From Phytophthora quininea (Eukaryota > Oomycota > Peronosporomycetes > Peronosporales > Peronosporaceae), in assembly GCA_011947345.1 (NCBI GenBank), contig JAAVTG010000561.1, positions 62,001-126,000 on the forward strand: 64,000 nucleotides of DNA, given 5' to 3'. Both the position numbers and the translations under genes were made by a program. The first letter of the stretch is position 1. Each line of letters starts with the position of its first letter. Shown in pieces: positions 23,785 to 45,000 of this stretch. The notes beneath the pieces were generated by a model. It was not told where the DNA came from. It searched no databases and worked only from the letters and a program-made list of their open reading frames with translations.

Positions 23785-24740
23785 TTAGTGACGACGACGA
23801 ACACACTTGCCAGCGTCGGAAGTCTCAGGTGCAGTCGTCGCAGCTGCCGGGGCCTCCGTTTCGGTGTTGGTCTCCGGCGCCGGAGTCTCAGTCTCCGTAG
23901 AAGGGGTCGCTGGGGCAGTCTCCGGGGTGGTCTCACTCGACGAGGAAGTTTCGGTTGATGGGGTCGTCTCGGTCGACGGCGTTGCCGGGGTGGAGGCCGG
24001 GGTGGTCTCAGAGGCCGGGGCGTCGGTCGCGGGGATGCCTCGCCGTCGGTTGAAGCGCTGTCGCCGGCGCTGGAAGACTGGGTCTGCGTGGACGGCGTGG
24101 AAGGTGTTTGCTGCGCCGACGAGCCTGCGGTGCTTGACTGCTGGGTCGACGGGGTGCTCGACCCGCCGTTCGTGATCGGCACACACTGCTTGTAGATCTG
24201 CCAGTCCGGGCTGTGCAGCGCCAGCCAGTAGAAGACAAAGAGACACTTGCCCTTGCACGACGAGTAGTCCGTCGGGATCTTGGCCGGGTACGACGTGAAC
24301 TGCTTGGCGCAGTTGTCGTGGTGGAAGACCATCGTGTCGTCGATCCAGGCCTCGCACGGGCCTTCGTGGGACGCGATGAAGCCTTCCTTGTACTCGTCGT
24401 TCTGCCACGTCATGTCGGAGTAGCTTGACACGTCCACGGGGTCCGCCGTCTCGAGCGAGAAGCCGTAGTCCTTGGCAATGGGATCGACCATATCGCGAAG
24501 TGACTTGTAGCCCGTGGCGTTCCAATGGTCGGTGAACGCCTGCGTGTTCTGCGCCGGGCTCCAGTTGTAGTGGCCGCCGTCGAATCCCTTGTTGATCTTG
24601 GCGCTCGTGAGCGCGTTGTACGTCGTGTAGATGGTGTTGGGCTTGTACGACGCCTTGGGCTTGGAGATGTAGCCGTGACCCTGCACGCTAGCGGTCAACG
24701 CCGCGAAGCCAACGACGGTGGTGAGCGAGGAGACTTTCAT
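23785..24740 (-). CDS. AA17-like copper monooxygenase C
   Basis: ATG at 24738-24740, signal peptide MKVSSLTTVVGFAALTASVQG followed by HGYISKPKASY. No intron: the position where A and B have one reads straight through (FIASHEGPCEAWIDDTMVFHH). The Ser/Thr/Pro/Glu-rich tail ends GKCVRRRH with the stop at 23785-23787. Near 24,045 the frame changes by one base exactly as in copy A; the following frame gives the expected low-complexity tail. It would be a secreted monooxygenase of about 317 residues. It is the donor of the 3' half and 3' flank of copy A. Confidence 0.78.
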
Positions 24741-25064: not shown

Positions 25065-27125
25065 ATGAAGCTCTACAGGCGTACGATTTGGCTCGAGGAG
25101 TTGTGTGTGTCGACCCCGACCTGCAAGTGTATAACCTTCAGGGTGAGATCTTCAAGCAGGGAGGCCTGCGTTTCAACGGCGCTTATGTTTCCCAGTTGCG
25201 TCTGTACGCGGCCAAGACGGAGAATGGGGACTGGTTGTCCGCTGCTGCGCCTCAAGCGAAGGCCCTCGCCACGACAGAGTTACCGTCGATTCCAGGGCTG
25301 CGGGCCGAGGAGTTAGCCCCCAAAAGTAATCGCTAAAGTGTTCAAGTCGCTTGGAGAATGTCAAATCCACGTTCTTGTGGAGATCCGGCATTTAGGTTCC
25401 CAACCAGAGCTCGGGGCCAAGCCTTGGTACAGCCGAAGGAGAAGCTAAAGCTAGCTTGTCTTCTGGTCGGGGCGGGATTTGGTGCTTTCTCGGTTCCGAT
25501 CAAGAAGAGCGGTGATGTTGATGATCTGCGGAGAGCGATCGAGCAGAACGGGGGCGCTGTCCTTGCTGAGGTGGAGCACCTCCAGCAAAACCGTTTGCCG
25601 CCAAGACAAAAGACAGCAAGTGGCTCGCCTCCGATGCACCGGAAGCGGAGAAGTTTGAGATTGCCGAGCGCATTAACGATGTTGATGCTATTAGTCCTCA
25701 ATTTGTGGACCCGAAGAGGAAACTACTTGGCATTTTCGAGTCCATCGGGGTTGCCAAGTTCATGTGCTGGTGGTTGTCCAGGAAAACCGATAGAAACGTT
25801 TGTTTCTAAGTGAGGACAACATTTATGTAGACTCGAAGAAGATGACTACTGAAGCCGAAAGGTCCAAGCTATGGTGTCTTATGGTGGTAGTACGGACCGA
25901 CCCGTTTTCGACATTTGTTGGTAGCGATGACGACGTCGACGATTTACAAAGGGCTACCAAAAAGACCGGGGAGGGTCGGGGAGTGCAGCTGGGTTGCTAC
26001 TACACCTCGCAAAGCTGCAAGAAGCTTGGATTTCCCGAATTCTTCAGTCGTGAAAAGGCTCAGGACTGACGAGTGCCCACTAGCTCAAGGATTCGAGATG
26101 ATGATTCTCTTCACTCAATGAGGAAGATTGCCGAGGTTTTCAATGGTGCTCCTCAAAACGACTCGTGCATTCACGCGTTAGTCGTGCGTGCCAACACGTC
26201 CAAGCGAGAATTTATTCCAATAGTCGATTGGTTCCCGGGTGAGATGAAGCAAACACAACTACAAGTGGGAGACGAATCTGTTCCTGTGAATTACTTCCAA
26301 GCCGGCAGACTTCCTGCGATGAGTTGCAGTCCGATCTCGCCAACCTTTGGAGCGTTCCTGTTTTGGTGTCATCTTCGATCAGCTCATGGAATTTGCGACA
26401 GAATGCTGTCAACTCTACAGGACCAGAAACGTTTTGGTGGCGGGGAATCGAGGAATTGGCAAGACCTTCTTCTGTATTTACTGCGCGTAAATGAACACGC
26501 TACTACCAGACTCGACGTTGGTGCTGGTTTTGGCGACGTTTACTTTAAGCATTGCCCCAACGCCAACTTGTTTTACACGCTCTCAAGCGAAGAAGTTAAT
26601 GAGATTTTGTGTCAGCCGTGGGTCGTCCGGTTGATCATCGAGAGCGAGTTCTAGTTCACTCAGTTTTACGGATTTTCGCCTGTATTCGAATCGTGTGGAT
26701 CGCGTGGATACCTTCAGTTTATCAATGAAGTTAGTAGGACAAAGTTTATCCTGCCACCCTGGTCCCTTGAGGATCTTCGGCCGTGCAACTCGCTTCGTGA
26801 GGACAAGTTGACCGACAGCATCTTGAGTGAACGGTTTTCCGAATACGGCGGTATCCCGCCAGCGATTTTCGCCACTGACCAAGAGCGGGTTGCGGAGAAT
26901 TTGGCCATTGCCATTCACCGGTTTGAAGTCTTTAAAATTACGCACAAGTTCCCGAAGATAAGCCAATTCCTAAAGACCGACCGAATCTTGGCCACGGTGC
27001 CCACGGCAACGAACTACAGCGCCGAGTTTAAGATCGAATTTCTTTCCGAGCGCATCGCGACCAAAATCGCCGCCCGAGCTGACGACAAGGAATTGCAGGA
27101 AATGCAGCGTTTGGGCTGGCTGTGA
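25065..27125 (+). pseudogene. Crinkler (CRN)-type effector pseudogene, copy 1
   Basis: The locus starts at ATG 25065. Two successive N-terminal CRN-like modules are visible: one around 25180-25320 (LRLYAAK...WLSA) and one around 25450-25800 (LACLLVG near its start, later the AAKT...WLAS block in another frame). A C-terminal NTPase-like region follows (QPWVVRLI near 26,610) and a conserved C-terminal end with stop at 27123-27125. The frame changes repeatedly, so no intact protein is encoded. CRNs are host-targeted proteins of plant-pathogenic oomycetes that act in plant nuclei (family knowledge). A closely similar inverted copy lies at 56435-58515. Confidence 0.75.
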
Positions 27126-27202
27126 GACGCCAAAGGAAGCAAGCAGGAGTATTGTCGTGTCCGATCAATTTAAACAAACTTACGTAGCAGTTTGATCTAA
27201 AA

Positions 27203-28812
27203 CTACGTTTTCTTCGTGGGGCTGGAGTGAGGTTTCGACTCGGATACGTAGGCAGAGGCGGACGAGTGATCAGAAGCTAATCCACTGAGGTTTGATTCGC
27301 GAGGGGCTTGCACTGGGCCGACGGGGAGTTGAGACTTGGTAGGAGTATTGGGATTGCTGCTACCAGTTGTCTGCACAGGTGGAAGTGAAGTATTTGACAG
27401 AACTGTAGACGCAGCACCGTTGGATGGAGTTTCGACTACTCGCTTCGATGGAGATGGCTCCGGTACCGACTGAGTGTTTGCGTCGAGGGTGTCTGAGGAC
27501 TGGCTGGTTCGACGCTGTAGGCCAGGCATACGCTTGGCCGAGGTGTTTTTGTGGTGGGCTGTCGATAACTTCGATGGGTACCAGACGGCTTGGAATTCGC
27601 AGAAGTCCTTGCTCAAGAGAGATCGCAGCTACGGACTGACTTAAGGTAGCGACGGCAGCAATTGTGCTTCCGTTCACGTCACTACCAGGCTCTGGCTTGG
27701 CATTGTTGGAATCACTGGAGGGTTTTTGCTCAGTACTGCTGTCAATGATAGTCGTCCGTGGTGAAGACGCAGGGGAGTTCACTTTGGGACTAGTAGACCC
27801 ACTAACTTCTCGACCAAGCGGAATAAACACCAATTTAAATGATTGCGAATTTAAGTCGACCCACTCGACAGTTCTGGTGGTGGCGAAGCGAATCGGCGTT
27901 AATCGATTGGGGACTGCTGCACTAAGCACAGCTCCGCTGCGGAAATTGCCGACCAAAGGCGAATAAACGTCGATAGTCTGTCCCATCGGAAGCACTTTGA
28001 GACTCTGCAGACCGTGCACCACGGCCTTAAAGGGCTGCGCCGAGCAAGTGATCTCGAAAACCCCTCGCTGTTCGTTGTAGAGCTGAAGATGAGAGCGCGT
28101 CTTGGAGCAGACGGTAGCGCCTTCGATGAAGTTTCCGTCTCGATCGCAGAGCTCCACGTGAGTGACTTCAGTTTGCCAGTCGAATTGGTCGGGGCCGATG
28201 TGAGGCAGACTTAAAGGCAAGACACTTAAAGACGCCTTGCTGTCAGACATCGACAGCTGCATGGATCGGTGGCGAATCGATACGACGTCTTCACTGATAG
28301 CTTCAGTAGCTACAGCATCGCGAGGACTCACTTGGTGTCCGGGGATTTTGACCCGAAAGAACGAGAGATCCAACCACTCCTTCCTACCGGTACTAAAGCA
28401 GACCAAGGCGCAATTGATGTCGCAGTCAACTTGCTTGATTCTCCCGCACTCGACACGTTTAGTATCCACAGTTTCGAGCTCAATTTCCAGTCCCACCATT
28501 TCGGATGAAAGAGAACGCAACTCGCCAGCCTCGTACACGACCTAACAAGTCAAATCAAGTACAATAAGTGATCTCTTTTCCAATAAAATAAGGTGTTAAT
28601 ACTTTGTAGAAACTCCGATGTAGATCGAGTAATTGAAGTGGTTCATGTGGCGAAACCTGGACGGTGCATCTCCCGTCGCCTCCTTGATCTACGGGACTCA
28701 CCTCCACTACTCGGCCAGTACCGGTACGAGACTGCTGACAATTCCCCACTCCATTTGACCTTGCAAGTTGTCCATCGCACTCGAGCACGTCGCCAACTTT
28801 TATTCGCAGCAT
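27203..28812 (-). CDS. Protein with Tudor/Agenet-like repeats
   Basis: Likely start ATG 28810-28812 (MLRIKVGDVLEC). In-frame ATGs further upstream (28869, 28890) lie inside the Fanzor insertion. An intron at 28542-28602 (GTATTAAC...TTGACTTGTTAG) joins SFYK to VVYEAGEL in phase. About three beta-barrel-like repeats are seen: KVGDVLECDGQ..., GLEIELETVDTKRVECGRI... with GRKEWLDLSFFRVKI, and GQTIDVYSPLVGNFRSGAVL... with EWVDLNSQSFKLVF. Such repeats resemble Tudor/Agenet modules that bind methylated histones or arginines (inference). A Ser/Pro/Thr-rich tail follows. The frame changes once near 27,540, and the new frame continues as low-complexity tail to the stop at 27203. The gene is convergent with the CRN pseudogene (78 bp). 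Confidence 0.65.
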
Positions 28813-28888
28813 CAGCAAGATCTCCTTGAAGACTCTACGAAACCTTTTTCTTTTAGCGAACTTGGTCATTCTGCAATTTGCGCCGAAC

Positions 28889-30961
28889 ATGCCAGGCCCA
28901 CCTGGATCCCCCGACCCCGGTGGCGGCTGCCAATGTCAGTCTCCTTCCACAGAAGCTGAGCCAGAGTCCAAGCGTCGACGCACTGACGAGAACACGCCAC
29001 CCAATCGAGCCGAACGCCCAAGTAGAGCCGGCGCACGTCCCGACGCCGCGCGCCGTATAGCAGTCAACGCAACGTACAACTTTGTCAGCAGGAAATCAAC
29101 ATTGCGCGCGGTTTGTACGGACGAGGCGCTCTCGCTTCCGTGGGAGGACGTCCTGAAGACGATGAACAGAGTTGTTGCAGAGGGATATCTTCTCGCCGAC
29201 TTTTATGTCATCAACACGCTGGCGTCCAACGGTCAGCTTGTTGAGCTGACCAAGCCGTTCTTCCGCAAGTGTCTTGCTGCGTTGTCTGACCCCAAACGTG
29301 TGGGCAAAACGACCGCCCAGTACCTCGAGACTATCACCGGAGCTGATTCTAGCGACATACATTTCGAGACCACAGTGCAAGAATACGTGTCACTTCGAGG
29401 TGATATACCTGCCATCAACGGCAGGTATATTAACCAGGGCTTTACGGCTCCGCAGCAGAGCAAATGGCGAAGGCAACCCGACTCAGCGTGACACGGAACA
29501 TCGGCCGTCGGCTTCGACTGTACGTATTTGCCAAGTACAACAAGAAATGCGGTGACGCGACGGATATCGTCAAAGGTGCAATGGATGACGTCTACACGAG
29601 AAGGCTGTGCCAGTCCTGCCGCACTAAGAAACGCAAGAAGAAGGCTCTACCTCCTGACTGTGCTGTTTGTAAGTTGAACCACGACGCAGCTACCGAGGTC
29701 CGAAGACTGGTTCCTCGAGACCGGGAAGGCAAGATCAACTGGAGTACACAAGCGCTGCTACCGCTCTACTCAACCATCCTTTCTGCCGTGGAGACAGCAA
29801 ACGAGAAGAACAGCAAAAAACCAAGTTCCAGGCCATCCGAACGTTCAGCTTGGTACCGACGAAACAGGGCTTCCGCTGTGCTTACGCGCACATTAACTCG
29901 ACGGGGCTGAGGGACCTGCTTCAGTGCAGCACGTTGGACCGGAGCATGACCGTGGTGACCTCAAGCGGGCAATTGGTTACTCTTGGTGAGAGCTTCAAAG
30001 TTTGGGGCTCAGTCGCGGAACTGTGGTGGCGTAAACTATTTCGTGTTGCGAGCTTTGAGAAGAGCGGTCTTCACTTCCACTGCGAGCTGGCAACGAACGG
30101 GAAAGGTGTCAGTATTACTCTGCATCGGAAAAACCGGAGGCGCCAGCGGAGACACCACCTCGGCGTCTCGAAGACTACGATGTCGTGTGGAGCCTAGACC
30201 CCGGCAGCACCGACATGTTTACTGCCGCGAGATTCGACGTCAGCACGCACACGCTGTCTGATGAAATAGTACATTACCCGTCGACTAAGTTTTACGGGGA
30301 CAGCAGCTACAGACGTAGCACCAAGCGCATCCAGCGCAAGATTGCAAGGGCCTCCGACATCCAGACAACACTCAAGAACATACCAACCAAGAAGACGGCC
30401 TCTTTGGAGACCTTGAAGGAGCACATCCGCTACGTTGTTCCCAAACTCGACAAACTACTGACGTTCTTTATGCAAAAGACGTTCAGGAATCTGCGATTTC
30501 GTCGGAGCATGCTAGCCGACAAAAACTTGAAGAAGGTCTGCTACGATCTGGCCGGCAACAGCAGCCAGCGCACTCTGGTTGCTTTCGGGAACTGGGCTGC
30601 CACCAACTCCGCGGGCATCATCAAGAAGAAAACGCCCGGATCGGTGAAGCGCTTGGAGCGCATGCTCGCTCACTACTGCGACGTCAAGTCTACCGACGAA
30701 TACCTGACGAGCCAGATGCACCACGGCTGCTCCAGTCCAGAGCGAATGGAGAACCAACGAACCAAGCGTCGCTGCCGCGACAACGTCGTGCGGTCCGTTG
30801 CTGTGCACAAGGTCTTCCATTGTCGACGCAGAGATGGTGGCTGCGGCCAAACCGTCAACAGGGACGTGAACGCTTCGAGGAACATCTTGGATGTGGCACT
30901 GTGTGAGCTTCAGTACAGCGAAGGAGCGCGGCCAGTGCGACTTCGCAGGCCATCTCCATAA
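28889..30961 (+). pseudogene. Fanzor RNA-guided nuclease gene, copy 1
   Basis: ATG at 28889 (MPGPPGSP). Frame segments: 28889-29491, 29434-29910, 29814-30197 and about 30120-30961. Each step is a one-base change to the same side, and all are shared with copies 2 and 3. The N-terminal half has a helical domain (LPWEDVLKTMNRVVAEGYLLADFYV) and a four-Cys cluster (CQSC...CAVC). The C-terminal 258-codon frame is uninterrupted and holds RuvC-I (WSLDPGSTDMF, Asp codon 30197-30199), VAFGNWAATNSAG, DEYLTSQMHHGC, the zinc-finger half CRRRDGGCG and RuvC-III (NRDVNASRNI, Asp codon 30863-30865). Fanzors are eukaryotic relatives of TnpB that cut DNA guided by an RNA from the element's own end. Whether a complete protein is made depends on the frame changes. 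Confidence 0.85.
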
Positions 30962-31083
30962 TCTCAAGCAACCGAGGTCTCCTTTGAGGGGACTGTGCAG
31001 CTGAATGGCTGGTGGAGAGTGGGGCTGCACCATCGGACGCCGGCTCGGAAGAAGAACACCGTACAACGTACACGAGTCGGTAG
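30962..31083 (+). ncRNA. Putative Fanzor guide (omega) RNA, copy 1
   Basis: The segment after the stop codon is conserved in all three copies although it codes for nothing. It can fold: CCGAG (30972-30976) with CTCGG (31044-31048) as outer stem, GTCTCC (30977-30982) with GGGGAC (30988-30993) as a small hairpin, GTGCAGC (30995-31001) with GCTGCAC (31024-31030) as a second hairpin, then GTAC/GTAC near the end. In known Fanzors and TnpBs the guide RNA comes from this place, with the guide starting just outside the element. Expression is not shown. Confidence 0.5.
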
Positions 31084-31197
31084 TACTTTGCTATGTTAAT
31101 AGTCAGGGCTTCGGCAGCGTGTTCCGAATACAGCAAACGACTTCATCAACAACTTGGAATGCAACTTTACTACTACGACAAATGCCATCTAGAACTG

Positions 31198-32214
31198 CTA
31201 GTGTTGGGTCTGAGAACTACTTAAAATCTGCGTGAAGATGGCGCCTAATGCGTCGATATCATCGCCATCGCGACCGTGGAAGCCGCTCAACTGGAATCCG
31301 TCCGGCGCGTTAATGCTCGCTCCTTCGTCGGTCGGCGTGCCGCCTTCAACGTGTGGTCCACCTGCAGCGTTGCTGAGTTGCAGGTCGGGGTCGAGCGACC
31401 ACGGAAAGGTCGACGAAATCGGCGAGTGGTCCGACAACTGCGTGCCGTTGTCGTCCAGGAACGCTTCGTTCTCATTATTCCACTTGCCGAGCTTGAGTAT
31501 AAAGTAGTTGTTGCCGGGGTACATGATCTTGTCGACCACCTCGCAGTCGTTCGACATGGTCTTCTCGTCACAGACAATGGCATCCGCACCCTTTTCAGGC
31601 GGGATGCCTTTCCGGACGTACTCGACCCAGCCGTCCGTCAGGTTTTGACTGGCAACAAACTCGGCGATGGTGCCGAGCGACCGGGTGTACCTCGTGTTGG
31701 TGTCGCCCATAACGATCACGGCGTTGTCGGTCGAGTTTGCTGTGATGAAGTCGCCTAGCTGAGCCAGACTCGAGCCACGCGCGTCTTCATCTGCATCGGT
31801 GGTTCCCGTGTCGGCGTGCAGGTTGTACAGGTCGATCAAGACGCCGTCCGCGAGCTGAATCGTCAAGAAGGTGAAGCCTTTCGGGGTTAAACAATCCGCC
31901 GAGGAGAAGGTGCTACAGTCGTTCCACTTGGTGCGCTCCAAGTCGGTGATGTTGCTGAACGGGTAATGTGAGAGCGTATTGAGACCACTGCCGAACGGCA
32001 CCCCACCGCTGGTCGGAGTGCGATACTCGTGCGTGTTTTTCGAGTAGATGTAAGCGTGGGAGTTGAAATCCTCTTGGACGTTGACGATATCCCAGTCGCT
32101 GATGCGCTTGCCCATTTCCACGCTGTAGGAGGCCGGGTCGCCGCTAGACAGAAGCGCCGGCAGCCCAGCCACGTTGAGGACGGTAAACGTCGTCTCGGCT
32201 AATGCCCGCAACAT
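31198..32214 (-). CDS. DNase-I-fold (EEP) hydrolase 1 with shortened jacalin tail
   Basis: Intact ORF of 338 residues, ATG 32212-32214. Endonuclease/exonuclease/phosphatase fold: N in VLNVAGLP, metal-binding Glu in VNVQEDF, GDTNTRY (catalytic Asp), and SDHSP (catalytic His). The closest types are sphingomyelinase or phosphodiesterase-like EEP enzymes; the substrate is not known. The C-terminus keeps only the end of the jacalin-like lectin domain seen in genes 2 and 3: after GGPH the central strands are missing and it resumes at EGGTPTDEG and FQLSGFHGRDGDDIDALGAIF. No signal peptide is visible. It is the first of three tandem genes on this strand. Confidence 0.75.
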   Translation of the reverse strand: MLRALAETTFTVLNVAGLPALLSSGDPASYSVEMGKRISDWDIVNVQEDFNSHAYIYSKNTHEYRTPTSGGVPFGSGLNTLSHYPFSNITDLERTKWNDCSTFSSADCLTPKGFTFLTIQLADGVLIDLYNLHADTGTTDADEDARGSSLAQLGDFITANSTDNAVIVMGDTNTRYTRSLGTIAEFVASQNLTDGWVEYVRKGIPPEKGADAIVCDEKTMSNDCEVVDKIMYPGNNYFILKLGKWNNENEAFLDDNGTQLSDHSPISSTFPWSLDPDLQLSNAAGGPHVEGGTPTDEGASINAPDGFQLSGFHGRDGDDIDALGAIFTQILSSSQTQH

Positions 32215-32504
32215 GGCCAGTTAGTTTGCTGTGGAGACAGCGGGTCGGTGAGTGACCGGCACCGCCGACGGCCCCTGGAAAAATTGTGCGCGGTCTTGAG
32301 GTGAGCATGATCACATCTCTATTGGCCCTCACCACAATTTCCTGCTGCTCTGTTCCATTATGATGCGGGACAAACAACTGCAGATCGAAGTTGGCTTGCT
32401 CGTTCGGGATGGCGGCCCGGATGTGTGCCGTCGATTGTCATTAAGGAATCAAACATTCATTGAGTCTCCCTGGTGGCAATAACATAACTCTTGAACCACT
32501 TTGT

Positions 32505-33821
32505 CTACGTCTGCTGCTGCTGCTGAGCGCTGCTATCGACCTTAGCGAAAATGGCGCCCAGAGCGCTGATGCTGTCGTCGCCGCGACCGTGGAAGCCGAC
32601 CAACTGGAACCCTTTAGGTGCCGTCACAATGGCGCTGTTGTCCGTCGGGGTGCCGCCCTCCACCGTTCGGTCCTTGTTCGTCGTAAACTTTAGGTAGAAC
32701 AGGGTCGTGCGGCCGTCGCTCAAGAGAGAACCGCCGGCCTTGTCCCAATGCGCCTCCATGGACGTGATGTACTCGCCGGCTTCGAGCGCGAACTCGATCG
32801 GATCACCGCCGGTGCCGCCGTGGGAAAGCGTGCTCTCCGTCGGGTCCGACACCGACAGCGTCACCGCGTCGATCCGCTTGTCGGCTCGGATCGTAATGGA
32901 GCTCACCGTTTGTCCGGCGGCGGCCAAAGCCACGTCCGTGAAGCCGGCGCCGTGCGGTCCGCCGACTGCGTTGCTCAGATGCAGATCCGGGTTCAACGTC
33001 CACGAAAAAGTCGACGAGAGCGGCGGATGGTCCGACAGCGGCTTGCCGTCCTTCCCCATGAAGGCGTCGTTCTCGTTGTTCCACTTGTCTAGCGTCAGCG
33101 TGATGTAGTTATTGCCGCGATACATGATCTTGTCCACGACCTCACATTCGTTCGTCATGTTGGCCGTCTCGCACTTGATGGCCTCGGCGCCCTTCTTGGG
33201 AGCCTTTCCCTTGCGGACAGTCTCGATCCAGCCGTCCGTCAAGTTCTGGCCCTTGATGAACTCTCGGATGGTGTCGAGCTCGCGGGTGTAGCGGGTGTTG
33301 GTGTCGCCAAACACAATCACTGCGTTGTCGGCCGAGTTGGCGGTGATGTAGTCACTGACTTGCGCCAAGTTGGACGCACGCGCCTTCTGGTCGGCGTCGG
33401 TGGTGCCAGCGTCCGTGTGCAGGTTGTAGATGTCGATGGTGACGCCATCGGCGATCTGCACCCCGACAAACGTGAAGCCCTTGGGGGTCATGCAGTCGGC
33501 GCTGTCGGTGTTGCTGCACTCGTCCCACTTGACGCGGTCGAGGGCCGAGACATTGGAGAACGGGAAGTGCGAGAGCGTGTTGAGGCCACTGCCGAACGGC
33601 ACCCCGCCACTGGTCGGGGTCCGGTGCTCGTGCTTGTTCTTTGAGTAGAGCGCGGCGTGGTAGTTGAAGTCCTCTTGAACGTTGACGATGTCCCAGTCGC
33701 CGATGCGCTTGCCCATGTCGACGCTGTACGTCGACGGGTCGCCGCTAGACAACAGTGCGGGCAGTCCCGCCACGTTATAGCACATGACACTAAACGTGTT
33801 GGCTGCTTCCTGGAGCGCCAT
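32505..33821 (-). CDS. DNase-I-fold hydrolase 2 with jacalin-like lectin domain
   Basis: Intact. The preferred start is ATG 33819-33821 (MALQEAANTFSVMCYNVAGLP), as it lines up with its neighbours; the protein is 438 residues. The N-terminal 290 residues are the EEP domain (NVQEDF, GDTNTRY, LSDHPPLSSTFSW). It then has a complete jacalin-like beta-prism (GGPHGAGFTD, VSSITIRADKRIDAVTLSV, SHGGTGG, FQLVGFHGRGDDSISALGAIF). Jacalin domains bind sugars, so the enzyme may be targeted to glycans or glycolipids (inference). No secretion signal is seen. It is the reference full-length gene of this small family. Confidence 0.8.
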   Translation of the reverse strand: MALQEAANTFSVMCYNVAGLPALLSSGDPSTYSVDMGKRIGDWDIVNVQEDFNYHAALYSKNKHEHRTPTSGGVPFGSGLNTLSHFPFSNVSALDRVKWDECSNTDSADCMTPKGFTFVGVQIADGVTIDIYNLHTDAGTTDADQKARASNLAQVSDYITANSADNAVIVFGDTNTRYTRELDTIREFIKGQNLTDGWIETVRKGKAPKKGAEAIKCETANMTNECEVVDKIMYRGNNYITLTLDKWNNENDAFMGKDGKPLSDHPPLSSTFSWTLNPDLHLSNAVGGPHGAGFTDVALAAAGQTVSSITIRADKRIDAVTLSVSDPTESTLSHGGTGGDPIEFALEAGEYITSMEAHWDKAGGSLLSDGRTTLFYLKFTTNKDRTVEGGTPTDNSAIVTAPKGFQLVGFHGRGDDSISALGAIFAKVDSSAQQQQQT

Positions 33822-34375
33822 GGTTTCCGGAGTGCCTTCTTGTCGGAAGCGGGACGTGCGCACTCAATTGAGTATTGGAGAATGAGCGATGAGGAGTGCT
33901 CTGCGATGATAGCAAGCCACGGACACAACAACATGATCCATTTTTGTACTGTTCGAAATATACCTTTTCCCAAGTGCAATGCGATGCCTTTCCTGCGCTC
34001 GACCGGCTGGCAAACCTCGGAGTAGGTTCGCGATGGGCGTGCAACGCGGCAATGCTCTGTGTTGACTCGGATTAACAAATAATATTCATCGTAGTGTTAG
34101 TAAGGTATTAGTAACAGCGATAATGGCAAGAACGTCTTGCTGGGGACGGCACCCGACAAGCTTCCAACACCAACATTGATCAACATCAATGTCGCATTCG
34201 TTGTTGATGAAGATCTAGTCCCTTTCTTCAAATACCATGCCCACGTGGTTGTCATGCTTAAGTGATCAGGCAACTTTTAGCACAAAGCGATTATAATAGT
34301 CAACACAGCAAATTGCCTGCTCCCACATGACATTATGGAACACTTTGCGGGTCTCAGACTGCCGCAGCCACAGAA
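33822..34375. other. Spacer between hydrolase genes 2 and 3
   Basis: No supported gene. Only short mirror frames. The AT-rich part around 34060-34360 holds no recognised repeat. The promoter of gene 2 should lie at its left end. Confidence 0.5.
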
Positions 34376-35642
34376 TTATACCTTGGTCCAAATGGCGCCA
34401 AGGGCATCGATCTCATCGCCGTCTCGGCCGTGGAAAGCGCTAAGTTGAAACCCGTCCGGGGCAGACACCGTGGCGCTATCGTCCGTCGTGGTCCCCCCGA
34501 AAGAGTGTTGCCCAAGCTGGTGGTGAACTTGATGTAGAAAATGCGCGTGTGGCTGTTGTACTTGCCCCAATGCGCCTCCATCTTGGTGACATACTCGCCA
34601 GCGGACAGTGTCAAGGTTTTCGCGGTCCCGCCTGTTCCGCCGTGGGAGAACGTCGTAGCCGTGGGCGACGACACCGTCACACTAACGGCGTCCACTCGGG
34701 ACCCGGCTCGGATCGTGATCGAGCTCACCGTTTGCCCCGCTGCAGCGGACGCGACATCCGTGAACTGGTCTCCGTGTGGCCCGCCCACGGCGTTACTCAA
34801 GCGGATCGCTTCATTGAGCGACCACGAAAACGTCGACGACACCGGCGGGTGGTCGGAAAGCATATCGCCGTTGTCGTCGAGGAACGCGGCGTTCTCGTTG
34901 TTCCAGTTCTCGAGCGTCAGGGTGAGGTAGTTGTTGCCTCGGAACAGGATCTTGTCGACGACTTCGCACGTGTTGGTCATGTTGCTCTCTTCGCACACGA
35001 TGGCATCGGCTCCTTTCGTCGGGTATACTCCGTTGTGAACGTACTGGACCCAACCGTCCGTCAGGTTCTGGCCTTCGACGAACTCGCGGATGGTATCGAG
35101 CGACCGGGTGTACCTCGTGTTGGTGTCGCCCATGACGATCACGGCGTTGTCGGCCGAGTTGGCGGTGATGAACTCGCTGAGCTGCTCCAAATTGGACGCC
35201 CGCGCTTCTTCGTCGGCGGTGGTGGTGCCCGCGTCAGTGTGGAGGTTGTACAGGTCGAACGTGACACCGTCGGCCAGTTGGATCTCCAGGAACGTGAAAC
35301 CTTTGGGCGTCAAGCAGTCGGCTCCATCAAACGTCGAGCAGTCGTTCCACTTGGTGCGGGTCAAGTCGGTGGTGTTGCTGAACGAGAAATTGACAGCGTG
35401 TTGAGACCGTCGCCGAACGGCACCCCGCCGCTCGTGGCGGTGCGGTACTGGTGCGAGTTCTCCGAGTAGACGTAGGCGTGGTAGTTGAAATCCTCTTGGA
35501 CGTTAACGACGTCCCAGTTGCTGATGCGGCGGCCGATCTCGACGCTGTTCTCGGACGGATTGCCACTCGACAGCAGCTCCGGCAGCCCCGCCACGTTGTA
35601 GCTCATGACGCTGAACGAGTTCTCGACCAGAGACTGCAGCAT
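34376..35642 (-). CDS. DNase-I-fold hydrolase 3 with jacalin-like domain, two frame changes
   Basis: ATG 35640-35642 (MLQSLVENSFSVMSYNVAGLP). Same layout as gene 2: VNVQEDFNYH, GDTNTRY, LSDHPPVSS, GGPHGDQFTD and the jacalin end FQLSAFHGRDGDEIDALGAIW, with the stop at 34376-34378. The frame changes near 35,395 and at a six-C run near 34,497 (ahead of the GGTTTDD segment). If the second change is real the protein runs on to 34354 with an unrelated end. The 5' side is bordered by Fanzor copy 2, whose 3' end lies 168 bp upstream of the start codon. Confidence 0.72.
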
Positions 35643-35817
35643 TTCTAATGCTATAACCACTTGAGCTGGAGACGGTCACTTGATGAATGACTTTCAAATG
35701 GCAAGACATCTTGGTGACCACTGCAGCCCCGACAGACACTGCAACGTGGTGGAGACAGTTGCAAACGCGCAGTGTCCGATAAAAGAGTCCGATTAGAACT
35801 TTTATATAGCAGAGGTT

Positions 35818-35939
35818 CTACCGACTCGTGTACGTTGTACGGTGTTCTTCTTCCGAGCCGGCGTCCGATGGTGCAGCCCCACTCTCCACCAGCCATTCAG
35901 CTGCACAGTCCCCTCAAAGGAGACCTCGGTTGCTTGAGA
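35818..35939 (-). ncRNA. Putative Fanzor guide RNA, copy 2
   Basis: Same 122-bp structured 3' segment as in copy 1, including the CCGAG/CTCGG, GTCTCC/GGGGAC and GTGCAGC/GCTGCAC pairings, with no change in the paired bases. Confidence 0.5.
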
Positions 35940-38012
35940 TTATGGAGATGATCTGCGAAGTCGCACTGGCCGCGCTCCTTCGCTGTACTGAAGCTCACAC
36001 AGTGCCACATCCAAGATGTTCCTCGAAGCGTTCACGTCCCTGTTGACGGTTTGGCCGCAGCCACCATCTCTGCGTCGACAATGGAAGACCTTGTGCACAG
36101 CAACGGACCGCACGACGTCGTCGCGGCAGCGACGCTTGGTTCGTTGGTTCTCCATTCGCTCTGGACTGGAGCAGCCGTGGTGCATCTGGCTCGTCAGGTA
36201 CTCGTCGGTGGACTTGACGTCGCAGTAGTGAGCGAGCATGCGCTCCAAGCGCTTCACCGATCCGGGCGTTTTCTTCTTGATGATGCCCGCGGAGTTGGTG
36301 GCAGCCCAGTTCCCGAAAGCAACCAGAGTGCGCTGGCTGCTGTTGCCGGCCAGATCGTTGCAGACCTTCTTCAAGTTTTTGTCGGCTAGCATGCTCCGAC
36401 GAAATCGCAGATTCCTGAACGTCTTTTGCATAAAGAACGTCAGTAGTTTGTCGAGTTTGGGAACAACGTAGCGGATGTGCTCCTTCAAGGTCTCCAAAGA
36501 GGCCGTCTTCTTGGTTGGTATGTTCTTGAGTGTTGTCTGGATGTCGGAGGCCCTTGCAATCTTGCGCTGGATGCGCTTGGTGCTACGTCTGTAGCTGCTG
36601 TCCCCGTAAAACTTAGTCGACGGGTAATGTACTATTTCATCAGACAGCGTGTGCGTGCTGACGTCGAATCTCGCGGCAGTAAACATGTCGGTGCTGCCGG
36701 GGTCTAGGCTCCACACGACATCGTAGTCTTCGAGACGCCGAGGTGGTGGCTCCGCTGGCGCCTCCGGTTTTTCCGATGCAGAGTAATACTGACACCTTTC
36801 CCGTTCGTTGCCAGCTCGCAGTGGAAGTGAAGACCGCTCTTCTCAAAGCTCGCAACACGAAATAGTTTACGCCACCACAGTTCCGCGACTGAGCCCCAAA
36901 CTTTGAAGCTCTCACCAAGAGTAACCAATTGCCCGCTTGAGGTCACCACGGTCATGCTCCGGTCCAACGTGCTGCACTGAAGCAGGTCCCTCAGCCCCGT
37001 CGAGTTAATGTGCGCGTAAGCACAGCGGAAGCCCTGTTTCGTCGGTACCAAGCTGAACGTTCGGATGGCCTGGAACTTGGTTTTTTGCTGTTCTTCTCGT
37101 TTGCTGTCTCCACGGCAGAAAGGATGGTTGAGTAGAGCGGTAGCAGCGCTTGTGTACTCCAGTTGATCTTGCCTTCCCGGTCTCGAGGAACCAGTCTTCG
37201 GACCTCGGTAGCTGCGTCGTGGTTCAACTTACAAACAGCACAGTCAGGAGGTAGAGCCTTCTTCTTGCGTTTCTTAGTGCGGCAGGACTGGCACAGCCTT
37301 CTCGTGTAGACGTCATCCATTGCACCTTTGACGATATCCGTCGCGTCACCGCATTTCTTGTTGTACTTGGCAAATACGTACAGTCGAAGCCGACGGCCGA
37401 TGTTCCGTGTCACGCTGAGTCGGGTTGCCTTCGCCATTTGCTCTGCTGCGGAGCCGTAAAGCCCTGGTTAATATACCTGCCGTTGATGGCAGGTATATCA
37501 CCTCGAAGTGACACGTATTCTTGCACTGCGGTCTCGAAATGTATGTCGCTAGAATCAGCTCCGGTGATAGTCTCGAGGTACTGGGCGGTCGTTTTGCCCA
37601 CACGTTTGGGGTCAGACAACGCAGCAAGACACTTGCGGAAGAACGGCTTGGTCAGCTCAACAAGCTGACCGTTGGACGCCAGCGTGTTGATGACATAAAA
37701 GTCGGCGAGAAGATATCCCTCTGCAACAACTCTGTTCATCGTCTTCAGGACGTCCTCCCACGGAAGCGAGAGCGCCTCGTCCGTACAAACCGCGCGCAAT
37801 GTTGATTTCCTGCTGACAAAGTTGTACGTTGCGTTGACTGCTATACGGCGCGCGGCGTCGGGACGTGCGCCGGCTCTACTTGGGCGTTCGGCTCGATTGG
37901 GTGGCGTGTTCTCGTCAGTGCGTCGACGCTTGGACTCTGGCTCAGCTTCTGTGGAAGGAGACTGACATTGGCAGCCGCCACCGGGGTCGGGGGATCCAGG
38001 TGGGCCTGGCAT
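35940..38012 (-). pseudogene. Fanzor RNA-guided nuclease gene, copy 2
   Basis: ATG at 38010-38012, stop at 35940. Same four frame segments as copy 1 (38012-37410, 37467-36991, 37087-36704, 36780-35940). Differences from copy 1 in the RuvC part include VCNDLAGN for VCYDLAGN, RRCRDDVV for RRCRDNVV and a Ser for Pro just before the end. All RuvC Asp residues and the zinc-finger cysteines are kept. The change of frame at the six-A run (37082-37087 as T6 on the plus strand) is the same. Confidence 0.85.
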
Positions 38013-38165
38013 GTTCGGCGCAAATTGCAGAATGACCAAGTTCGCTAGCTTTGATCGCGTCCGCAGGAAACCTTCGGCTGGCTTCGTTCGAGCAGCGCAG
38101 CGAAGGCTGTAGATGGCATGCCTTCAAAAGCGCGTTTGCGCGCGCAGGGTTTCCGTTTTGAATGA

Positions 38166-38375
38166 GACCGTATTATCCGGACGTCCGTTTTCTACCATGA
38201 CAATACTCCAAACGCTATTGACCGGATACAGTGCGACCCAGATCCAAGTGCTGGCTGCGGCTGGTATCCTGCAGCTCACTTGGCAAAAGCTCGCGGACCT
38301 GACACTTGCTCTGCTGCCACGGGCTTCTTCATCGACCCGAAGGACTTGCCGGACGACGGCTACGGCCTGATCCAG
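38166..38375 (+). pseudogene. N-terminal exon fragment of an EF-hand cation exchanger
   Basis: Open plus-strand stretch that reads like a real exon. It has a luminal Cys-rich segment (CDPDPSAGCGWYPAAH, then a Cys) and GFFIDPKDLPDDGYGLIQ, ending at a CAG/GTGCTT donor-like border (38375/38376). Such a segment precedes the first membrane helix in NCX-like exchangers with EF hands (moderate recognition). No membrane helices follow; downstream is unrelated AT-rich DNA. It points toward the C-terminal fragment at 38846-39649, which lies on the other strand. Confidence 0.4.
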
Positions 38376-38845
38376 GTGCTTCCAAGTATAAATCTGTTTC
38401 TTCAGACGAGTTCAAGCAGCAATACGCGTAATGTACGCATCAAAGTCCGATAGAACTCGATCTCACTGGGTGAATATGGCAGCAATTCCACAAAGTTTGG
38501 CATTGGCAAATGCTTTATTCAATGATTACACTGCACTCTATTACGGCAGCCTGCATACAATCGTGAACCTAGCATTGACACCAACTGCGCAGATGCTCAA
38601 TAACTTGACACCAATAAAGAAGTTGTAATTGTAGCAACAGCCAATTCACAATAAAGGTTCCCGGGGCTCAGCACAGCACTTGTAGTGTGCTATTCAATAC
38701 GTGACGCGAAAAAGGTTTTTGACGACCATTACTTCGGAGTTATGTGCACGCACAGCAGACCTCAGCAACAATCGGAAAACTGGAGCAACGCCACTTTATA
38801 ACACAGACCCACGTACGGATCTCAAACGAAGACACTGGGGCCGCC
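38376..38845. other. Spacer between the exchanger fragments
   Basis: AT-rich, no supported gene. Short frames are present on both strands only. Confidence 0.4.
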
Positions 38846-39649
38846 TTAGTCCATGCCGAGCACGTTCTCCAGCAAGAACACCAGGAAGATCGACAGCGGG
38901 TACAGACACAGCACAATCAGGCCGTCCAGGAGGCGCTGGGTCTTGTGCATGGCGATGTAGCCGATGGCCAGCTCCACGAACAGAATCGAGATGGTCTCGG
39001 CCGAGAACTCCCACACCAGACCGCCGCTCTTGAACGACATAAGCGCCGCGAAGATGCCGAGGCAGAAGGTGTTGTTCATCCACGCAGCGCCCAGGAGCGC
39101 CGCCACCGAGATGGAGATCGTCTTGAACGTCTTCTTCTGCGCGTAGTTGTAGGCAGCGATCAGCTTGCTGGTGTTCGAGGCCAGCGGTGCCACCACGAAC
39201 GACACGTAGAAGGCCGGGATGCCTGTGCGAGCACCCACCTCCGAGAGCACGTCCACCATCGGGTAGGAAAACAGCAGCACCAAAGCCGTGCCCAGGAACA
39301 TCATGTACGCCGAACGGATCTTGATCTTCTTCTGCTGCTCGTGGATCGACAGGTTGACGAGGTCCTCGGGCATCTCCTCCTCCTCTTCGTCGTCCTCGTC
39401 CTCGGCAGGCGGGATGGCAAGCGAGTACTGCTGCTCCACCACCACACGCTGCATCGAGACAGATGAGCGTCCCTGGAGTTCGTCCTCGTACTTGGCCAGC
39501 AGGTAGCGCAGCGTCGCCTCCACGAGCTCGTTGAACTCGATGAAGCCGCTCTTATCCTTGTCGGTCGCAGACATCCATCTCTCAGCTTCGTCGCGGGAGA
39601 CGTTCTCGCCCAAGTCCATGAAGAAGACCTGGAGCTCAGCCAACATCAT
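38846..39649 (-). pseudogene. C-terminal half of EF-hand Na+/Ca2+ exchanger-like protein
   Basis: From the first ATG (39647-39649) to the stop at 38846-38848, 267 residues. It has an EF-hand calcium loop (DKDKSGFIEFNE) then an acidic loop, then five or so membrane segments with the second exchanger repeat (PAFYVSFVVAPLASNTSKLIAA, LLGAAWMNNTFCLGIFAALM) and a last helix (LYPLSIFLVFLLENVLG). This is the back half of a plant NCL-like cation/Ca2+ exchanger. The first exchanger repeat is missing: Fanzor copy 3 with its flank begins only 21 bp upstream of the ATG. It is therefore 5'-truncated, unless an upstream exon lies across the insertion. Confidence 0.7.
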
Positions 39650-39758
39650 TTAAAAAGGCAACTCACCAACCTGCGCTGCTCGAACGAAGCCAGCCGAAGG
39701 TTTCCTGCGGACGCGATCAAAGCTAGCGAACTTGGTCATTCTGCAATTTGCGCCGAAC

Positions 39759-41831
39759 ATGCCAGGCCCACCTGGATCCCCCGACCCCGGTGGCGGCTGC
39801 CAATGTCAGTCTCCTTCCACAGAAGCTGAGCCAGAGTCCAAGCGTCGACGCACTGACGAGAACACGCCACCCAATCGAGCCGAACGCCCAAGTAGAGCCG
39901 GCGCACGTCCCGACGCCGCGCGCCGTATAGCAGTCAACGCAACGTACAACTTTGTCAGCAGGAAATCAACATTGCGCGCGGTTTGTACGGACGAGGCGCT
40001 CTCGCTTCCGTGGGAGGACGTCCTGAAGACGATGAACAGAGTTGTTGCAGAGGGATATCTTCTCGCCGACTTTTATGTCATCAACACGCTGGCGTCCAAC
40101 GGTCAGCTTGTTGAGCTGACCAAGCCGTTCTTCCGCAAGTGTCTTGCTGCGTTGTCTGACCCCAAACGTGTGGGCAAAACGACCGCCCAGTACCTCGAGA
40201 CTATCACCGGAGCTGATTCTAGCGACATACATTTCGAGACCGCAGTGCAAGAATACGTGTCACTTCGAGGTGATATACCTGCCATCAACGGCAGGTATAT
40301 TAACCAGGGCTTTACGGCTCCGCAGCAGAGCAAATGGCGAAGGCAACCCGACTCAGCGTGACACGGAACATCGGCCGTCGGCTTCGACTGTACGTATTTG
40401 CCAAGTACAACAAGAAATGCGGTGACGCGACGGATATCGTCAAAGGTGCAATGGATGACGTCTACACGAGAAGGCTGTGCCAGTCCTGCCGCACTAAGAA
40501 ACGCAAGAAGAAGGCTCTACCTCCTGACTGTGCTGTTTGTAAGTTGAACCACGACGCAGCTACCGAGGTCCGAAGACTGGTTCCTCGAGACCGGGAAGGC
40601 AAGATCAACTGGAGTACACAAGCGCTGCTACCGCTCTACTCAACCATCCTTTCTGCCGTGGAGACAGCAAACGAGAAGAACAGCAAAAAACCAAGTTCCA
40701 GGCCATCCGAACGTTCAGCTTGGTACCGACGAAACAGGGCTTCCGCTGTGCTTACGCGCACATTAACTCGACGGGGCTGAGGGACCTGCTTCAGTGCAGC
40801 ACGTTGGACCGGAGCATGACCGTGGTGACCTCAAGCGGGCAATTGGTTACTCTTGGTGAGAGCTTCAAAGTTTGGGGCTCAGTCGCGGAACTGTGGTGGC
40901 GTAAACTATTTCGTGTTGCGAGCTTTGAGAAGAGCGGTCTTCACTTCCACTGCGAGCTGGCAACGAACGGGAAAGGTGTCAGTATTACTCTGCATCGGAA
41001 AAACCGGAGGCGCCAGCGGAGCCACCACCTCGGCGTCTCGAAGACTACGATGTCGTGTGGAGCCTAGACCCCGGCAGCACCGACATGTTTACTGCCGCGA
41101 GATTCGACGTCAGCACGCACACGCTGTCTGATGAAATAGTACATTACCCGTCGACTAAGTTTTACGGGGACAGCAGCTACAGACGTAGCACCAAGCGCAT
41201 CCAGCGCAAGATTGCAAGGGCCTCCGACATCCAGACAACACTCAAGAACATACCAACCAAGAAGACGGCCTCTTTGGAGACCTTGAAGGAGCACATCCGC
41301 TACGTTGTTCCCAAACTCGACAAACTACTGACGTTCTTTATGCAAAAGACGTTCAGGAATCTGCGATTTCGTCGGAGCATGCTAGCCGACAAAAACTTGA
41401 AGAAGGTCTGCAACGATCTGGCCGGCAACAGCAGCCAGCGCACTCTGGTTGCTTTCGGGAACTGGGCTGCCACCAACTCCGCGGGCATCATCAAGAAGAA
41501 AACGCCCGGATCGGTGAAGCGCTTGGAGCGCATGCTCGCTCACTACTGCGACGTCAAGTCCACCGACGAGTACCTGACGAGCCAGATGCACCACGGCTGC
41601 TCCAGTCCAGAGCGAATGGAGAACCAACGAACCAAGCGTCGCTGCCGCGACAACGTCGTGCGGTCCGTTGCTGTGCACACGGTCTTCCATTGTCGACGCA
41701 GAGATGGTGGCTGCGGCCAAACCGTCAACAGGGACGTGAACGCTTCGAGGAACATCTTGGATGTGGCACTGTGTGAGCTTCAGTACAGCGAAGGAGCGCG
41801 GCCAGTGCGACTTCGCAGGCCATCTCCATAA
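39759..41831 (+). pseudogene. Fanzor RNA-guided nuclease gene, copy 3
   Basis: ATG at 39759, stop at 41829-41831. Frame segments as in copy 1: 39759-40361, 40304-40780, 40684-41067 and about 40990-41831. It shares VCNDLAGN, a synonymous variant in the DEYLTS region and the Ala in ETAVQEY with copy 2, and differs uniquely by VHTVFH for VHKVFH before the zinc finger. RuvC Asp residues and cysteines are all present. The sequence is slightly closer to copy 2 than to copy 1. Confidence 0.85.
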
Positions 41832-41953
41832 TCTCAAGCAACCGAGGTCTCCTTTGAGGGGACTGTGCAGCTGAATGGCTGGTGGAGAGTGGGGCTGCAC
41901 CATCGGACGCCGGCTCGGAAGAAGAACACCGTACAACGTACACGAGTCGGTAG
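41832..41953 (+). ncRNA. Putative Fanzor guide RNA, copy 3
   Basis: Third instance of the conserved 3' structured segment. Paired bases are identical to copies 1 and 2. Confidence 0.5.
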
Positions 41954-42017
41954 AACCTCTGTTTAGTGGAATCTCGACTAAACGTTCTTGGTTCTCAAAT
42001 ATAAAAATTACAGAAAA

Positions 42018-45000
42018 ATAGGGGTGCAGAATCTGTGGGTGTTGCTGGCGCCCGTGGGGCGGCAGATCGAGCTCGAGTCGCTGGCGGGGCAGGTGCTGGC
42101 CGTGGACGCCAGCATCTGGCTCACGCAGTTCGTCAAGGCCATGCGTGACGACGAAGGCAACATGATCCGCAACGCGCACTTAATGGGGACGCTACACCGT
42201 GTAGCCAAGCTGCTCTTCTATGGGGTGCGACCTGTGTTCGTATTCGACGGCCAGACGCCCGAGATCAAGAAGCGCACGACCGCCAGACGACGCAAGCGGC
42301 AGGAGCAGCAGAGCGCCAACCTCAAGCACACGGCGCAGCGGATCCTACTGAATAGACTAAGACAACAACAACAAGAACTTAGGAAGACTGGAGCAGCTCA
42401 GCCAAGTGCTGTAGCTCCTGGAGTTATCCTACCAGTCAGTGGGGAGACTCAGAAGGCTGCAGAGGAAGAGGAAGAGAGTGAAGAGAAACAACAAGAGACT
42501 GACGAAAAGAAGGAGACCAATTGACACTGGAAGATATTGAGTTGGACACTTCCAGACTCAATAAGATCGACCTGCATGCGGTGTTTTCATTGCCGCCACA
42601 TTTACAGAAGGATATGATCCAGAAGATCCTACGAGACAGGAGACAGGAGGTGAGAGACCAGTTCATCCCATTGGCAGGCAACCCGGAAGCGTATTCGCAT
42701 ACACAGATCTCGGCCTTCTTGGAGACCAGTGCGTTGAATAGACGTATCGAAGCTGCCAAGAGCCAGAAGAAAGACGAAGAGATGCAGCAGCAGGGAGACA
42801 CCGGGTTGGGGCCGGGCCAACGCATTGACTCAAACAGCAATAGGTTTTATATCTACCAGAAGGATGAGGAACACAAACAGTCGGAAGACCGAGAAGAAGA
42901 CGTAGTGGCGGAGATTGAACAGACTGATGCAGCGGAGAGAGACACAGTCGCAGGTTCTGAAGTACTGGGTAAGGGCCATAGTGCATTCAAAGCGATCGAT
43001 AAAAGACCGCTGTCTGAATTCCCTGGTGGCAAAGCGGGACAAGTTCCTGATGCCTCTGCGAAGGCCGTCACGGATGCATGGGTTGCGCGGCATCAAGTCC
43101 GGGTAAAGCAAGAGCCGATGCTTGCAATCGAGAAACTTCGACGCAGTAAAGTCGAACCAGAAGAGATTCCTACTACTGTACCTGCTGACGACCCGAAACT
43201 AATTCCTGTGAGTGACGTCTCCGTCTCCGTGAAGCTTGATGATATGGACCCGGAAGATATGGCACGTTTAAAGAAGCTGTTCCCTGGCACGGCGGTTAAC
43301 CCTGTCGAAGCGAAGCCTTTAGAAGCTGATGAAGACGAAGACGTTGACTGGGAAGAGGTGCCAGCTACAAGTAACACGAGTGCTCCCTCTGAGCCGAAAG
43401 GTGACATTGACGATGCAGAAGAGAAACAATTGGCTTTATTGTCTTCGAGTGTCGTAAATAATGTATTCAGTGAGAAAGATGAGGATGAGGAGATGGAGTG
43501 GGAAGATGTACCGGCTGAAGCTGGATCCGATAAGCCATCATCAAGCCAGGCCGTGCTTGATCAAGATGCGGCTGTACAGGATCAAAATATTGCCTCAGCG
43601 ATTACGGAAGCGCTGCAAGAAGAGAACATCGAAGAGCAAGCTGTTGATGAAGATGGCACAGACGAATTGTTCTTGACTTTGAAGAATGAAATGGAGGATG
43701 CGAAGGCGCATGGAGATCTTGACCTCCTGAAGGACGAGGCGTTAAAATCTGCTATGGCTACCGCCTCAAATCTCACGTACGTTGGCAAAATTGCAGGGAG
43801 GAATGCGCTTATCGGACTAACTCCAAACTCTATTGTATGCAGGCAATGGGCAGCCGGAGCGGTTCGAAGAGCTTTAGAAGCGCACTCGCTGCAGCATGGA
43901 CATCACCGATCTCCAGTCGCAGCAACCGAGGTACGTACTACATCGCAGTTTACTTCCGAGAAGGGTTCAGCAGAGGCTCCAGTGGAAGTCTCAGATGATG
44001 AAAACGATTTCCAATCTCCGTCACCCGCTACTAAAACCCCAGAAGTAGTCGAAATAGACGAGGGCAATGAAAGCCGCCCGAACGATACCGAAGAAGATGA
44101 TAGTAATCGACGGCTACAAGCTGCGCTGGCTGCTTCGATCGCTGAAGAGAAAGAAGGGGCTGGGGATCAACGTGTTCGCTACCTTCAGTATACACAGCCT
44201 AGTGAATCTGCATCAACTGCGGCGGACAAAGTTCAACAAGAAATGGATGCAGCTGCTCTGCAACAAGAGCAGATCGAGTTGAGGAAACTCCGTAGTCGAC
44301 AACTGCGCGACACAGAAGGGATCACTGACGAGATGGTAGCGGAAGTTATGGCACTGTTGCGTCTATTTGGTGTGCCGTTCCTAGTCAGTCCAATGGAGGC
44401 TGAAGCGCAATGCGCGGCATTAGAGCAGCTTGGTCTTGTCGACGGAGTGATCACTGACGACAGCGATATCTTCCCATTCGGTGGACAGCGTGTGTACAAA
44501 AACATCTTCCACCACCAGAAATTTGTCGAGGCCTTCTCAGCGCAAGACATCGCGCGAGAACTGGGCTTTTCTCGCGAGCAGATCATCGCGATAGCGCTGT
44601 TGTTAGGTAGTGACTACACGGACGGAGTGCGCGGTATTGGCATCGTCAACGCAACGGAGATTGCAGCAGCCTATCCGGGACTTGATGGTCTTCGTGAATT
44701 CAAAGAGTGGGTAGGCTCCTTTGATGTGAGCGAGGAAGCTCAACGCTTAGCCTCAGCTGGCTCGAAGAAGAAGAAAAGCAAAACATCTAAAGGCAAACAC
44801 AATGGATCCGACGACGAAGGAGAGGAAAGTGAAGATGAAACAGTTCGAGAGCGATTCCAGCGATCTCATGCCAGCGTGCGACGCAAGTGGGAGCTTGGCG
44901 ACGAGTTCCCGAGCAAACAAGTGGTGCAAGCGTACATGTCTCCTCAAGTTGATCGTTCGGAAGCTCGCTTTTCGTGGAGCGCACCGGATTTGGCAGCGTT

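Follow-up and report, generated by a model that had tools for sequence, protein, structure and literature searches.

The window analysed here, a 64,000-nucleotide (nt) stretch of Phytophthora quininea DNA (C551:62001-126000, in an assembly of 87.2 Mb and 993 contigs), carries three near-identical copies of a Fanzor element within 13 kb. These copies are probably recently spread, broken and non-autonomous pieces of a Fanzor1-type element of the Peronosporales, arranged as a single copy and a composite, and moved by machinery outside the copies themselves. The sites are filled in C551 and empty in two further contigs, C145 and C643, with two insertion points and no target-site duplication. The trio therefore represents two insertions, one of which holds two copies together with cargo, rather than the three elements named in the original prediction, which was correct in its observation and in the protein family and partly wrong in the history it drew.

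Copy 1 (28854..31083, plus strand), copy 2 (35818..38047, minus strand) and copy 3 (39724..41953, plus strand) have a 2,230-base-pair (bp) unit in common, and their gapless alignment contains 9 variable sites and no insertions or deletions (indels), a similarity for which chance is excluded; placement, strands and length agree with the prediction. Copies 2 and 3 share a further 53 bp on the 5′ side and 8 bp on the 3′ side that are missing from copy 1, which is 5′-truncated relative to both. Their near-identity extends over 35810-38100 in copy 2 and 39671-41961 in copy 3, where family homology begins at about 39629-39648. The figure of 2,230 bp, put forward as the exact size of the element, is instead the common core of differently truncated copies. 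The proposed genome-wide search with this unit yields 13 matches, equivalent to ten copies once pieces are joined: three in the window, three on C691, two on C204 and one each on C352 and C570, the C570 copy lying in three pieces and one C691 copy being interrupted by some 1.7 kb of inserted DNA (locus L009, C691:450102-451832). Matches beyond the window are 82-89% identical to the window unit, so that no close source of the trio is found elsewhere in the assembly. In nine of the ten copies the 3′ limit is the same within about 10 nt, the exception being C691c, which has a deletion there; the 5′ limits vary, and the sequence beyond the 3′ point is unrelated between copies. The flanks of the three window copies also differ from one another. 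These distinct flanks, the substitution-only differences and the joining of both insertions at adjacent or nearly adjacent bases of C145/C643 confirm that the copies are real and not one locus assembled three times.

The empty sites define the extent of each insertion. C145 and C643 are overlapping contigs with 99.9% identity, and they differ from the window flanks by 2.2-2.9% substitutions over most of the length, rising to 4.5% and 5.2% in two stretches; we infer that they represent the other haplotype. Insertion 1 (28850..31126, plus strand) comprises copy 1, a 4-nt filler to its left and an unmatched 43-nt stretch to its right. In C145 (loci L068, L072) the match to the window stops at 28849, 10 nt follow, and the match resumes at 31127, so that the insertion replaces these 10 nt without a target-site duplication. 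The target is T-rich, containing a T-run, and a genome search at an E value of 0.001 finds the 43-nt filler nowhere else. Insertion 2 (35806..41973), a composite block of about 6.2 kb that is absent from C145 and C643, contains copy 2, the cargo and copy 3, with the copies head to head and their 3′ ends facing outward. Both contigs match the window up to 35805, and their next nine bases, TCGACTAAA, correspond to window positions 41974-41982. The junctions accordingly read ...CTTTTAT, the block, then TCGACTAAA..., and the empty site reads ...TTTTTAT followed directly by TCGACTAAA. The right block edge rests on this 9-nt match beside the left edge; the 26 nt that follow it (35 in the window) are unalignable, and the BLAST match resumes at 42018 (empty-site alignments C643 593651-597049 / 597085-600387 and C145 1-3215 / 3251-6645). 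The block carries 4 extra nt at one end and 12 nt at the other, these 12 nt being close to an inverted copy of the target bases that follow, and neither a target-site duplication nor a recognisable remnant is found at its empty site. Because C643 and C145 are continuous across the block, copies 2 and 3, together with all the sequence they enclose, form one unit of presence or absence. Two of the three other family loci occur on both presumed haplotypes (C691/C204 and C570/C352), and no counterpart of C691c was found; the sharing of these other loci makes the window trio look like the young part of the family.

Each copy contains a RuvC/zinc-finger frame, which spans 258 codons at 30185..30961 (plus strand) in copy 1, with the motifs DPG, E, HxxC, C, C and NRD, and lies at 35940..36716 (minus strand) in copy 2 and 41055..41831 (plus strand) in copy 3. 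The zinc-ribbon domain PF07282 is matched at 29.9 bits in copy 1 and 29.2 bits in copy 3 against a curated cut-off of 26.3, and copy 2 scores 27.2 bits in the genome-wide match list. Specifically, SLDPGS and DEYLTSQM-HHGC place a DPG at RuvC1 and a rearranged glutamate six residues ahead of the zinc knuckle, the arrangement given for Fanzors by Yoon et al. 2023 (PMC10711439). In the profile search that had been proposed, as in Foldseek, the solved Fanzors SpuFz, PpFz and GtFz stand on top, and the TnpB-like L79 (mimivirus Fanzor2) comes fourth in the profile list at 3.3e-5. VIA-align places SpuFz and PpFz within the first five rows, while GtFz (11.5) ties with mimivirus Fanzor2 (11.6) and TnpB (12.1) and falls below Cas12f (14.0). 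By the profile and Foldseek rankings, the copies are nearer to Fanzor1 than to Fanzor2 or TnpB. The closest named relative is P. sojae PHYSODRAFT_337834, with 53-54% identity over the RuvC half, and the highest-identity named relatives come from Phytophthora, consistent with the predicted oomycete origin; the copies fall within a Fanzor1-type clade shared by Phytophthora and Nothophytophthora. The predicted cysteine cluster is a putative zinc finger, in which the first Cys of the C4 motif of Bao and Jurka is replaced by His in 11 of the 13 aligned rows. These rows include P. sojae, P. citrophthora, P. nicotianae and Nothophytophthora, and the substitution is a feature of the clade; loss of the Cys by decay is ruled out, as the His is common to relatives that include proteins annotated in other species. 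Histidine is able to bind zinc. The predicted structure of the window frame was poor (predicted local distance difference test score, pLDDT, 43.6 with 5 sequences) and was not used.

The 258-codon frame, proposed as a nuclease gene, forms the C-terminal part of the protein only. The N-terminal part of the copy-1 protein (28892..30137, plus strand) is distributed over three other frames at 28826-29491, 29464-29910 and 29850-30197, and copies 2 and 3 have the same layout. Mapped on copy 1, at least three frame breaks separate the sequence from three relatives including PHYSODRAFT_337834. Introns are ruled out as the source of the frame changes, since the contiguous proteins of the three relatives jointly span all breaks without space for an intron; the P. 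sojae segments alone leave 168 nt open at the last break, which relative P0124 bridges. Sequencing error is also unlikely, because three breaks are common to the three copies. The copies consequently lack an intact protein-coding gene and appear to be degenerate Fanzor1 members, so that their use as a working mobility system is not supported, the reading frame being broken in all three. A Tat-like Pfam match in one middle frame was set aside as a basic stretch scoring 21.4 bits, below its cut-off of 22.5.

A sister pair in the same genome warns against the initial assumption that near-identity of Fanzor copies implies recent multiplication. Contigs C691 and C204 each carry a head-to-head pair of family copies at corresponding places, with the outer flanks swapped relative to the interior, i.e. 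with the interior inverted. Among these four copies (2,418 alignment columns, 58 with gaps), 127 sites group the copies by locus, none groups them by position and 20 are private. Two copies older than the separation of the loci have therefore stayed alike within each locus, and homogenisation within each locus is complete. Divergence is higher in the interior (5-9%) than in the outer flanks (1.5 and 3.8%), as expected if the inversion hinders exchange.

The nine differences within the window are all private derived changes, five in copy 1, three in copy 2 and one in copy 3, when polarised by the seven other copies, some of which have gaps at two of the sites. Six of them change an amino acid, in line with little or no selection. 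On average there are 3 private changes per 2,230 bp (0.13%), compared with about 1.1-1.5% on each presumed haplotype lineage, and 0.13% would be a minimum age of the insertions if conversion acted. The young age that had been predicted is supported by the absence of the insertions from C145/C643 together with these exclusively private changes. Copies 2 and 3, nearly identical inside, differ in their outermost 5′ stretch, where both remain family-like, and this step is interpreted as marking where a conversion tract stops within the element; an anchored test of the copy-2 5′ end is positive against C691 (0/500) and C204 (1/500).

The cargo (38101..39647), flanked by the 5′ ends of the two composite copies, comprises a dispersed repeat and two oppositely oriented pieces from the region of a Na/Ca exchanger (NCX) gene. 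One piece is a 267-codon open C-terminal fragment of an EF-hand/sodium-calcium exchanger gene (38846..39649, minus strand; PF01699 domain match). Among the best 40 of 45 candidates, its close homologues in the assembly lie on C752 and C401 only, and these two are 97% identical to each other with a synonymous divergence (dS) of 0.02. The cargo fragment differs from both by an unexpectedly high dS of 0.19-0.20, with a ratio of nonsynonymous to synonymous divergence (dN/dS) of 0.07-0.08, whereas across five tested genes or parts of genes the presumed haplotypes differ by a dS of 0.01-0.07; the silent divergence of 0.19 is thus about 3 to 15 times that between the presumed haplotypes. Together these values indicate that the cargo seems to derive from a gene copy long under selection and not found in the assembly, which would seem to be a lost paralogue, an unassembled paralogue or a gene of another species. 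The named proteins nearest to the fragment, among the best 120 of 316, are partial matches from Phytophthora fragariae with 91 and 89% identity.

The element ends were compared for conserved structure. A degenerate remnant of a 5′ hairpin lies at 39668..39702 (plus strand); the hairpin is clear in the folded C691 and C204 copies (loci L010 and L012; folding z-scores -3.50 and -3.42) and no better than shuffles in copy 3 (0.22), copy 2 (0.15) and C570 (-0.08), so that it is present in two of five folded copies, copy 1 being without the region. A 3′ hairpin was no better than shuffles in the two copies folded. Hairpins at both ends, insertion after TTTT and termini in common with a RepHel element are marks of Helitron2. 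The 3′ noncoding end, located at 30959..31083 (plus strand) in copy 1, 35818..35942 (minus strand) in copy 2 and 41829..41953 (plus strand) in copy 3, is a candidate guide (omega) RNA scaffold. Unit positions 2136-2198 hold the least substituted 44-nt and 60-nt segments among five copies (C691c omitted because of its deletion); with gaps counted, the 60-nt segment ties with a RuvC stretch, and the least substituted 76-nt segment falls in the RuvC frame. Within the 3′ end no base pair changed on both sides, and its folding does not markedly surpass that of shuffles (z-score -1.14, with 27 of 200 as good). An Rfam scan of 28800-42100 returned no match up to an E value of 1, and a model of the 3′ end built from nine copies found no match in 18 other Fanzor loci.

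These features suggest the following history. Gene conversion between the inverted repeats would have kept copies 2 and 3 nearly identical, as in the C691/C204 pair, and copy 1 may have arisen by copying of the composite or of the same source, losing its 5′ end in the process. Movement would have been driven in trans, possibly by the machinery of another element, for which a Helitron-like rolling circle is the leading candidate by analogy, or alternatively by repair that copied the sequence into a broken chromosome. The genome holds at least 152 Helitron-type Rep domain matches (PF14214), counted among the best 150 of 231 candidates; the fillers and the small loss at copy 1 suggest copying into a break as the alternative. 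A further reading, to which we give little credence, sees in the head-to-head Fanzor pairs the two ends of a mobile composite. Such a unit would take host gene fragments along between haplotypes or species, home into breaks cut by RNA-guided Fanzor at empty sites and be homogenised by the same repair. This reading is allowed by the presence or absence of the block as one unit, the outward 3′ ends at both independent pair loci, the filler junctions without duplication and a cargo source gene that seems absent from the assembly.

Several observations weigh against the favoured history of truncated pieces moved in trans. Searches for a partner transposon by the 5′ end and by the 3′ end recovered only members of this Fanzor family, which leaves the link to Helitrons at the level of analogy, and a 16-base 5′-core pattern, TAGCGAACTTGGTCAT, occurs with at most two mismatches at 100 places, compared with 44 for its reversed control. 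C145/C643 may be a duplicated segment instead of an allele, the two being inseparable at 96-97% identity over most of the flanks. For the copy-2 5′ end, the anchored test yields a negative result for C570 (198/500) and a weak one for copy 3 (49/500), and an unanchored test is weak throughout (C691 159, C204 58, C570 169 and copy 3 564 of 1000). In addition, copies 2 and 3 have no joint derived change relative to copy 1, so that the trio gives no direct view of conversion between them later than the origin of copy 1, and the assembly indels, about one per kb in one contig overlap, could in principle fake a frame break. It is also conceivable, though unlikely, that C145/C643 lost both insertions, the insertions being old and the near-identity a product of gene conversion alone. 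The strong homogenisation at the sister pair, a cargo dS of 0.19 that exceeds the haplotype values and the diverged 5′ ends of copies 2 and 3 would all fit such a history; it requires two separate precise losses, however, and it is opposed by the clean empty site of the block and by the presence of two of the three other family loci on both presumed haplotypes.

Had a functional Fanzor element transposed three times independently in a recent burst, the near-identity, the star-like private changes and the absence from C145/C643 would be accounted for, but this scenario is improbable given two insertion events of which one holds two copies and cargo, broken frames in every copy, differing 5′ limits and the homogenisation seen in the sister pair. 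We regard it as equally doubtful that host recombination duplicated one locus, segmentally or in inverted form, without element-specific movement: copies lying this close in alternating orientation, the slightly longer sequence that copies 2 and 3 share and the rearranged NCX pieces are compatible with it, whereas it leaves unexplained a 3′ end point that nine of ten copies share to within about 10 nt and past which their sequences are unrelated, insertion points that are adjacent or 10 nt apart in C145/C643, and cargo homologues on other contigs. An artefact in the form of a collapsed or chimeric contig, which the 993 contigs and residual indels of the assembly might bring to mind, is very improbable, because the copies differ by nine substitutions and no indels, while the examined C145/C643 overlap differs by indels only (6 gap openings and no mismatch over 6.4 kb), and because the junctions fall between adjacent or nearly adjacent C145/C643 bases.

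Comparison with described systems places the single copy and the composite block among Fanzors of related genomes. The Fanzor table of Bao and Jurka 2013 (PMC3627910) lists 4 and 1 for P. sojae, 2 and 1 for P. capsici and 1 and 1 for P. ramorum, and we take the first figure of each pair as Fanzor1. The Phytophthora Fanzors belong to the same protein family, from which the window copies differ by their broken frames and the His-initial zinc knuckle. In Chlamydomonas, CRe-1, 2 and 3 are Fanzor1 elements in Helitron2 transposons (PMC3627910), and they resemble the window family in frequent 5′ truncation with intact 3′ ends, a 5′ terminal hairpin (here in the C691 and C204 copies), a T-rich target (here at copy 1), some insertions without target-site duplication and captured sequence at 5′ ends. 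Unlike the CRe elements, no termini shared with an autonomous Helitron were found here, and most truncated CRe copies have duplications, which copy 1 lacks; the CRe sections of that paper describe no head-to-head composite. SpuFz, PpFz and GtFz show 11-17% identity and Foldseek TM-scores of 0.30-0.37, query-normalised and low over the whole model, and PpFz is found by a single window sequence only at an E value of 0.056. In contrast to these three, the window copies as assembled encode no working protein. Bacterial composite transposons consist of two inverted copies of one element around unrelated DNA. The block is like them in that the enclosed DNA is present or absent as a unit, and unlike them in containing no transposase. 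Among the open-licence papers listed (in one search the best 40 of 82), titles and abstract openings describe no composite Fanzor blocks.

The way in which Fanzors promote the spread of their elements has yet to be established. The interest of this locus lies in its paired filled and empty sites, its composite and the demonstration that copies of this family can be kept identical at one locus. One genome offers filled and empty sites, a single copy and a composite that are both young, and a second pair with homogenisation and inversion, so that hypotheses of insertion, truncation, excision and homing become testable by comparing isolates.

The wider Fanzor complement of the genome is large and varied, with 93 PF07282 matches and 102 RuvC-frame matches, some of them pieces of one gene, and several long open frames such as that at C669:246873 (519 codons). 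Orientations among all Fanzors looked mixed by eye, and no claim of a head-to-head preference is made. Several of the places matching TAGCGAACTTGGTCAT are clustered (C369, C456).

Between the two insertions, three tandem paralogues occupy 31198-35364 on the minus strand; two of them, when scanned, gave endonuclease/exonuclease/phosphatase and Jacalin-like matches, and the third (34354-35364) has an apparent frame shift near its end relative to its neighbour. C145 carries about 26 kb of extra DNA (C145:6645-32737) at window position ~32442, between the first and second paralogues. A 2-kb inverted repeat with 97.6% identity (25103-27128 and 56432-58464) brackets the whole Fanzor region, and one frame in it may be a decayed crinkler-type gene. 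Further upstream, 19173-24686 holds a cluster of direct and inverted repeats with ~74-98% identity.

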